A stretch of DNA of 40,079 nt from Bacteroidota bacterium (lineage in GTDB: Bacteria; Bacteroidota; Ignavibacteria; Ignavibacteriales; Melioribacteraceae): the NCBI GenBank assembly GCA_018829545.1, contig JAHJTX010000350.1, positions 1 through 40,079 of the forward strand, written 5' to 3'. The notes under the pieces are model-generated. The model did no database searches. It was not told the DNA's origin and worked only from the letters and a program-made list of their open reading frames with translations. The stretch's first letter is position 1. Every line of letters begins with the position of its first letter. Position numbers and translations under genes: made by a program. Shown one piece after another: positions 38,541 through 40,079 of this stretch.

Positions 38541-38774
38541 TGAGCGAACAGCCTGTTCGCTCTACAAGCGCAGCAAACTAAAGTTTGTATTACAACTTGT
38601 CGAAGCTCAACTGAAATCGTTGTTTCGCTTCGATTTACAAGATCAGTTTGTAACTCGAAGCGAAGCTTCGTGAAGTTGTTTTTGTAGAGCGAATCGCTGA
38701 TTCGCTCTAAAGGAAAGGGAATTATTAATATCTCTATCCATTTTTTGTAAAGCGAACAGGCTGTTCGCTCTACA
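38541..38774. repeat. REP composite block A (left of RAYT)
   Basis: Begins and ends with GCGAACAG-x-CTGTTCGC palindromes (38544-38560 and 38746-38774) and includes a second palindrome, AGAGCGAATCGCTGATTCGCTCT type (38686-38708), and CGAAGCGAAGCTTCG (38656-38670). It aligns almost base for base over about 235 bp with block B on the other side of the transposase gene. The bases before it (38512-38540) hold a degenerate copy, GAATCGCTCATTCGCTC. Confidence 0.9.
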
Positions 38775-38828
38775 AGCGTAAGCTAACTAAAGTTGGCGGT
38801 CAATAATTAAAGTTTCGTGAAGTTATTT

Positions 38829-38857
38829 TGTAAAGCGAACAGCCTGTTCGCACTACA
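38829..38857. repeat. REP palindrome upstream of RAYT
   Basis: A 29-bp unit with core GCGAACAGCCTGTTCGC and outer TGTAAA/ACTACA arms. It is preceded by CGTGAAGTTATTTTG, the same lead-in seen before the copy at 39839. Between it and the transposase start (38858-38965) I see only AT-rich sequence with no clear promoter. Confidence 0.9.
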
Positions 38858-38965: not shown

Positions 38966-39700
38966 ATGGCAGCCATAAAAATTTTTTATGAAAGAAATCT
39001 TCCACATTACCAGCCGCCTGGTTTTGCTTTCTTTGTAACTTTCCGATTAACAAATTCGATACCGATTAAAACTATAATCGAGTTAAAAAATGAAAGGCAG
39101 AAAGAGCTTGAGAAAATTTCATCAATCCAGAACAAAAGCGAAAAGAAAGAGCATTATAGAAAATATATCGGTGCATACTTCGGTAAGTTTGATCGTCTGC
39201 TTGATGGAAGTACAACCGGACCAAAATGGTTATTAAAGCCCGAGATTGCTGAAATTGTAAAAGAAGCAATTCATTTTAGAGATGGGAAGAAATACGATTT
39301 ATTTGCATACACTATAATGCCGAACCATGTGCATTTAGTAATAAAACCATTTGTAGAGCGAAGCGAAGTTTCGAATAAACTTCAGGAGATTGAAAAAATA
39401 TCAAGCACCGCTTCCGATGGTATTGAAAACGATTTGCATGTAAAGCGAACAGACTGTTCGCACTACATATTGACATTTATTCTCAGATCATTGAAATGGT
39501 ATACGGCAATAGAATGTAACAAACTCCTCAATCGTTCTGGCGCGTTTTGGCAGCATGAAAGTTATGACCATGTTGTTCGAGATGAGAAAGAATTAAAAAG
39601 GATTGTAAAATATATCTTATTGAATCCTGTAAAAGCCGGATTGTGTGAAACTGCAGAAAACTGGAAATGGAGTTATTATAATCCAAATTTTTTAGTGTAA
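38966..39700 (+). CDS. REP-associated tyrosine transposase (RAYT, Y1/IS200-like)
   Basis: RAYTs are single-copy relatives of IS200/IS605 TnpA that nick REP hairpins. The Y1 domain is clear: YQPPGFAFFVTFRLTN at the start, the catalytic HVH in TIMPNHVHLVIKP (His121, His123), then SLKWYTAIECNKLLNRSGAF, WQHESYDHVVRD, and YILLNPVKAGL with the candidate catalytic Tyr216. It has 244 residues. Residues about 129-167 are unusual: two REP-type motifs lie in frame there (see repeats at 39353 and 39439), lengthening the gap between HVH and the SLKWYTA block. ATG start without Shine-Dalgarno. It is flanked by REP blocks A and B, as expected for a RAYT locus. Confidence 0.88.
   Translation: MAAIKIFYERNLPHYQPPGFAFFVTFRLTNSIPIKTIIELKNERQKELEKISSIQNKSEKKEHYRKYIGAYFGKFDRLLDGSTTGPKWLLKPEIAEIVKEAIHFRDGKKYDLFAYTIMPNHVHLVIKPFVERSEVSNKLQEIEKISSTASDGIENDLHVKRTDCSHYILTFILRSLKWYTAIECNKLLNRSGAFWQHESYDHVVRDEKELKRIVKYILLNPVKAGLCETAENWKWSYYNPNFLV
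39353..39373. repeat. REP-type motif inside the RAYT frame (first)
   Basis: GTAGAGCGAAGCGAAGTTTC resembles a join of two motifs of the flanking blocks, GTAGAGCGAA and CGAAGCGAAGCTTCG. It encodes VERSEVS (residues 130-136) just after the HVH motif, with the frame kept. Confidence 0.6.
39439..39467. repeat. Full REP palindrome inside the RAYT frame
   Basis: A complete 29-bp unit (core GCGAACAGACTGTTCGC, outer TGTAAA and ACTACA) encodes residues HVKRTDCSHY (158-167). It differs from the external copies at one central base and keeps the frame open. It lies between the catalytic HVH and the C-terminal helices. Confidence 0.9.
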
Positions 39701-39842: not shown

Positions 39843-40079
39843 AAGCGAACAGGCTGTTCGCTCTACACACGCAAGCTAACTAAAGTTTGTATTACAACTT
39901 GTCGAAGCTTAACTAAATTCGTTGTTTCGCTTCGATTTACAAGATTAGTTTGTAACTCGAAGCGAAGCTTCGTGAAGTTGTTTTTGTAGAGCGAATCGCT
40001 GATTCGCTCTAAAGGAAATGGAATTATAAATATCTCTATAAAGTTTTATTGTAAAGCGAACAGGCTGTTCGCACTACAA
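39843..40079. repeat. REP composite block B (right of RAYT), cut by window end
   Basis: REP at 39839-39867, then the shared internal sequence (GTTTGTATTACAACTTGTCG, GTTTCGCTTCGATTTACAAG), CGAAGCGAAGCTTCG, the second palindrome type at 39988-40010, and a final REP at 40050-40078. It is nearly identical to block A in order and sequence. The window stops one base after the last REP, so the array may continue. Confidence 0.9.

Follow-up and report, generated by a model that had tools for sequence, protein, structure and literature searches.

Near the end of the window, the 40,079-nucleotide stretch of DNA analysed here, a RAYT transposase gene contains within its own reading frame two REP palindromes, which are of the types that surround it and that the RAYT is believed to spread. 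Coevolution is assumed for RAYTs and their REPs, and the locus bears on how both change together. The locus raises the question of how the enzyme's substrate came to lie within its gene, and whether the in-gene copies are ancestral protein sequence, inserted REPs or elements with a function of their own.

The RAYT gene and the REPs in its frame

The gene (38966-39700, forward strand) encodes 244 amino acids and was identified as a RAYT/TnpAREP resembling subclass 2.4 by profile, sequence and structure matches and by motifs. The NCBIfam profile REP_Tyr_transpos (NF047646) recognizes the product with 81.5 bits (cut-off 80, E 5e-23), and Pfam's Y1_Tnp scores it slightly under Pfam's own cut-off. 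E. coli TnpAREP (PDB 4er8) is the sole solved relative by sequence, and also the top structural match (E 4e-7) of the predicted model, whose mean pLDDT is 85.5. The HVH (HUH) metal-binding motif comprises residues 121-123 (39326-39334, forward strand). H121, H123 and Y216 are invariant across both of our alignments (A1 and A2). The putative catalytic tyrosine is Y216 (39611-39613, forward strand, within KYILLNPVKAG), which corresponds in the alignment to Y115 of E. coli TnpAREP. GTAG-tagged REPs flank the gene and are dispersed in the genome, as is characteristic of RAYTs. The protein is presumably active.

Within this gene we found two REPs. Site 2 (39438-39468, forward strand) is a complete REP of type A, identified by type A matches and its hairpin fold, that has a CTAC foot at 39463-39466 and reads V-K-R-T-D-C-S-H-Y-I. 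It differs from the REP copy at 38828 in three of 31 bases, and its DNA hairpin folds better than all 200 of 200 shuffles. Site 1 (39353-39373, forward strand) is a worn REP of type B that retains an intact GTAG foot (39353-39356) and reads V-E-R-S-E-V-S. Its core (39358-39373) has two mismatches in 16 positions to the type B sequence TCGAAGCGAAGCTTCG, and an intact form occurs on a fragment of the same genome (contig C260). The earlier note on this DNA had claimed a complete REP at 39439-39467, which is indeed there and is one base longer at each end, and a second REP-type motif at 39353-39373, which is real and matches type B but is degenerate. The translation has no stop across either motif. 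The hairpin strength of the in-gene element corresponds to z scores of -2.9 as RNA and -3.8 as DNA.

A linker (39374-39437, forward strand) separates the two sites, which are inverted relative to each other. From GTAG to CTAC, with the feet outward, the whole doublet spans 114 bp or 38 codons (39353-39466, forward strand). A REPIN consists of two near-identical inverted REPs that pair together. We considered and rejected this identity for the in-gene pair, given that the REPs differ in type and fold as separate hairpins; the pair is a REP doublet with only the orientation of a REPIN. A double-foot REP (GTAG ... CTAC), GTAGAGCGAACAGCCTGTTCGCTCTAC, occurs on contig C352 of the same genome, and one foot of the in-gene copy is altered to GTAA.

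The REP-bearing segment is predicted to be a loop that connects the HUH strand, beta3, to the next helix, alphaC. In the model, confidence is low from about residue 131 to 170 and lowest at 155-164, while the core is at 90 or more; the structure prediction that the earlier note suggested as a check thus places the segment in a low-confidence loop after the HUH strand. That note's figure of roughly 40 added residues is about right, since the distance from HUH to FWQ is 70 amino acids, compared to about 36 in short-loop RAYTs, and the doublet accounts for 38 codons.

The surroundings of the gene are rich in the same palindromes. The type A core, GCGAACAGNCTGTTCGC, has six sites in the window, all of them at the RAYT locus within 1.55 kb, where shuffled sequences are expected to have none. 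A type A motif search located flanking cores at 38544-38560, 38752-38768, 38835-38851 (the nearest upstream of the gene), 39845-39861 (the nearest downstream) and 40056-40072 (at the contig end). A type B motif search found perfect copies at 38655-38670 and 39957-39972, on either side of the gene, with a chance expectation of 0.01. Genome-wide, there are 16 type A sites in the 4.1-Mb draft and about 37 type B sites at no more than one mismatch, both of which are lower bounds because draft MAGs collapse repeats. The gene is also bracketed by a REP-containing direct repeat of 174 nt (38572-38745 and 39874-40047, both on the forward strand), the copies of which are 94% identical. Elsewhere in this genome, a type A REP lies inside a CRISPR-like repeat array and splits a repeat unit (L039/L159, G000:C181, about 390-411).

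Relatives, flank matches and local turnover

We searched 164 genomes of the order and found strong matches in 19 of them, representing 18 genera. A scan of named genomes places the relatives in Ignavibacteria and other Bacteroidota. Their N- and C-terminal parts are well conserved, and the segment from HVHLVxxPI to YIVTxIL is unalignable. The HUH-to-FWQ distance, about 36 amino acids in ordinary RAYTs of the order, reaches 115 in long-loop relatives. The loop peptides are about 6 to 85 amino acids long and also differ in sequence and charge. The extra DNA contains GTAG-tagged palindromes that differ from genome to genome. Between one and about six REPs occupy a loop (L016, L070); one loop has six tandem in-frame REPs of VGRAVCPTYGATNS-type repeats (L070), and another has a REP doublet repeated in tandem (L058). 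Four genes (G015, G022b, G070b and G089) have no REP in the loop despite clear or intact flanking REPs. The same loop junctions recur across genera, and on a tree built from the core without the loop, REP-bearing loops require seven changes, as opposed to 21.4 in shuffles. REP-bearing loops are thus clustered on the core tree.

To compare loops with their surroundings, every 22-nt word of each gene was assigned its best match in that gene's own flanks, with a threshold of at least 20/22 and with the N-terminal part counted from the LPH motif onward. Loops of 17 of the 40 long-loop genes matched at this level, or 16 of 38 without L065 and L067, whose spans are below 43 amino acids and which we assigned to the long-loop set by hand for their palindrome. 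None of the 40 N-terminal parts, none of the 40 C-terminal parts and none of the loops of 37 short-loop RAYTs did so. In the window, a good match to the flanks is seen for site 2 alone, with none for the linker, and recent copying is therefore more evident in the relatives than here. Some in-gene REPs (G045, G082 and G151) do not match their own flanks. The in-gene REP of G045 (L016) resembles one that precedes the RAYT in G101 (L046), which belongs to a different family; this likeness could reflect exchange between lineages.

Several pairs of genes reveal how rapidly the loop REPs change. One genome (G025) has two RAYTs whose core residues are 71% identical, with third codon positions at 0.56, and whose in-gene REP blocks agree in 61 of 62 nt. 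Within each of its two loci, the in-gene doublet resembles, linker included, a doublet after the stop codon (76/79 and 75/80), while the doublets of the two loops match each other in only 66 of 81 positions. Since the agreement is greater within a locus than between loops, we conclude that the doublets were copied locally. Two further pairs of same-genome paralogues (G057a/G057b and L063/L070) have loops that match their own flanks at 20/20 and those of the paralogue at only 14-16/20. Core DNA identity is 87% between the RAYTs of G151 and G160, and their loop REPs are of different types. In one 3.3-Mb genome (G144), a REP has no more than three exact copies, one in the loop of the RAYT and one close by on either side of the gene, all within about 0.8 kb, and in G057b three of four exact copies are at the RAYT. 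Turnover of the in-gene REPs, by replacement or copying, therefore outpaces change in the protein.

These comparisons led us to reject the idea that the loop is ancestral protein sequence: the loops of G151 and G160 differ completely at 87% core identity, and in G025 the REP blocks are more conserved than the third codon positions of the core. By such sequence comparisons, the in-gene REPs do not represent old protein sequence. The earlier note had proposed that close homologues should be aligned, and that close homologues with the same residues in genomes without these REPs would count against inserted REPs. We encountered no such homologues among the relatives. Instead, relatives are either without these residues or carry different REPs at this loop position, mostly matching their own flanks, which supports the note's suggestion that the gene records REP insertion into itself.

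The genome of the window contains additional RAYT pieces. At one contig end (G000:C260:21136-21373), there is a piece whose homology starts precisely with the TGTA foot of site 2; 13 nt beyond it, a second piece starts precisely with the TGTAG foot that belongs to site 1. A further piece is at a contig start (G000:C115:1-116). The pieces on C260 and C115 are in rearranged order and their contig ends have a 17-nt overlap in common, although this join is uncertain, as both pieces are at contig ends. The arrangement suggests that the in-gene REPs may have acted as breakpoints, either through cutting by the RAYT or through recombination between REPs.

The reading register of the loop doublets is nearly uniform. 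The GTAG foot of the loop is in frame 0, read GTA-G, in 26 of 27 cases, and the CTAC foot is exactly 27 amino acids ahead of FWQ in 11 genes, in both cases among genes that are kin, so the events are not independent. The register xGT-AGx would equally avoid the stop in GTAG. Exchange from foot to foot, or a single ancestral insertion followed by exchange, would fit the register better than many independent insertions.

Explanations for REPs within the gene

It is likely that this gene is a RAYT of the tnpAREP subclass 2.4 kind, with a permissive loop holding an in-frame REP doublet that is tolerated and repeatedly exchanged with the flanks. This explanation builds on the observed presence, position and register of the in-gene REPs, their match to cognate flanks, their local copying and their swaps between close relatives. 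Two features would make a doublet of the RAYT's own REPs tolerable in the beta3-alphaC loop: the peripheral position of this loop, and a register in which both REPs escape the TAG stop within GTAG. Flanking doublets would then repeatedly overwrite, or exchange with, the in-gene REPs of the same gene, in a manner that leaves both the frame and the GTAG/CTAC feet intact. The copying is probably done by the RAYT itself, rather than by host gene conversion, and the in-gene REP is presumably open to cleavage. We consider it unlikely that the RAYT goes on rewriting its in-gene palindrome to match the flanking substrates, with the in-gene copy acting as a protected master or a feedback site. If such an active, locus-bound copy existed, enzyme and substrate specificity would be physically linked in a single reading frame.

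Alternatively, the in-gene REP could be retained as a functional cis element through which the RAYT, by binding or cutting its own gene or mRNA, keeps its own level in check. The earlier note likewise suggested that the RAYT could nick itself or bind its own message. The strength of the hairpin as both RNA and DNA agrees with such autoregulation, as do the feet and palindrome kept at the DNA level in G025, the loop's status as one of just three genomic sites in a low-copy REP family (G144) and the own-genome fragments that begin exactly at the in-gene feet, as though these were breakpoints. However, the DNA-level identity is equally well explained by recent copying, the number of REPs per loop is variable, and the four genes that have flanking REPs and none in the loop indicate that the element cannot be obligatory for the subfamily. 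Moreover, we know of no RAYT for which RNA binding has been established. We therefore regard autoregulation as improbable. A benefit at the protein level, for example a specificity loop whose REP-encoded peptide tracks the REP, seems very unlikely. It would account for the single register of the doublet in nearly all members and for the position of the loop next to the HUH strand. Yet the peptides differ in sequence, length and charge, the loop is modelled at low confidence, and short-loop RAYTs manage without it; the insertion of subclass 2.4 was also modelled as peripheral, away from DNA and the active site (PMC6006769).

The loop might also merely have received random hits of a high-copy REP, unlinked to the RAYT locus. 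In-frame REPs do occur in other genes, including an HsdM-like gene in G057 and a gene for a T9SS-sorted protein in G025, and have been published for many genes (PMC3733652). Nonetheless, REP families with only three or four exact copies per genome still place one in the loop (G144, G057b), identical junctions are found across genera, and among about 35 REP sites away from RAYT genes in four genomes, only two are in plausible real ORFs. We find this reading very doubtful indeed.

Known systems and neighbouring cases

In-frame REPs within tnpAREP genes are a hallmark of subclass 2.4 (Quentin et al. 2018, PMC6006769), which corresponds to RAYT group 4 of Bertels et al. 2017, so the phenomenon of REPs in RAYTs has been known since 2018. 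The window RAYT has NHVH and FWQ, in agreement with the subclass motifs NH[IFV]H and WQ, and shares with the subclass a variable insertion between beta3 and alphaC, frame-preserving REPs in the gene and double-foot GTAG/CTAC REPs. Its tyrosine motif is YILLNP, where the consensus of our subfamily is YVLNNP and that of subclass 2.4 is YIxNNP. The subclass is also defined by an 8-amino-acid insertion at the end of alphaB (PMC6006769), and the likeness here rests on motifs, loop insertion, in-frame REPs and double-foot REPs. E. coli TnpAREP and its REPtron (PDB 4er8; PMC8266576) have the HUH fold, catalytic tyrosine and flanking GTAG REPs in common with our RAYT, but differ in their short post-HUH loop, REP-free gene and bulged REP stems.

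Di Nocera and colleagues described in-frame GTAG REPs, single or as dimers, in many other genes (PMC3733652). Like these intragenic GTAG/CGTC REPs and the Rickettsia palindromic elements, the REPs studied here are GTAG-tagged palindromes inserted in frame at tolerant sites. The hosts differ, however, being DNA repair and other genes rather than a RAYT; the main text describes no REP inside a RAYT and lists no GTAG REPs for Bacteroidetes. Ignavibacteria are not mentioned in the main text on subclass 2.4 (PMC6006769), which our results extend with the outward-foot doublet and its fixed junctions. The controlled match to own flanks, the copying of whole doublets within a locus and the REP swaps between close RAYTs are new relative to the main texts of both papers (PMC6006769, PMC3733652). 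New for Ignavibacteria is that in-gene copies turn over together with the flanking palindromes. Both in closely related pairs and in same-genome paralogues, a substrate lying within the gene of its enzyme can be seen turning over with the copies that flank it. Nature has thereby left a record of how REPs are replaced, and the pairs G025a/b, G151/G160 and G057a/b are testable cases in which enzyme and REP changed either jointly or independently.

We noticed some additional REPs and RAYT domains in unusual contexts. The HsdM-like methylase gene mentioned above contains the REP doublet VGQFAESHNIRNSVSTYT in frame, at a distance of about 1.3 kb from a RAYT (L162, G057:C46, REP at about 127586). 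The T9SS case is an in-frame REP in an apparent C-terminal sorting domain, SIPFVERKSSFAQ, in the same register as in the RAYT loop (L167, G025:C365:92-111). Two Chloroflexi MAGs encode a thiamine pyrophosphate enzyme with TPP_enzyme_N/C domains whose C-terminus is a RAYT-like domain (L090:1090-3633 and L096:1177-3633; 848 and 819 amino acids). Finally, a whole RAYT domain (L033, G027:C13, about 131329-131877) is in frame inside a 1487-codon frame that otherwise encodes an Eco57I-type methylase. Y1_Tnp matches residues 596-675 and the methylase matches are at 727 and 842-1120, such that the transposase is lodged, like an intein, within a restriction-modification gene.
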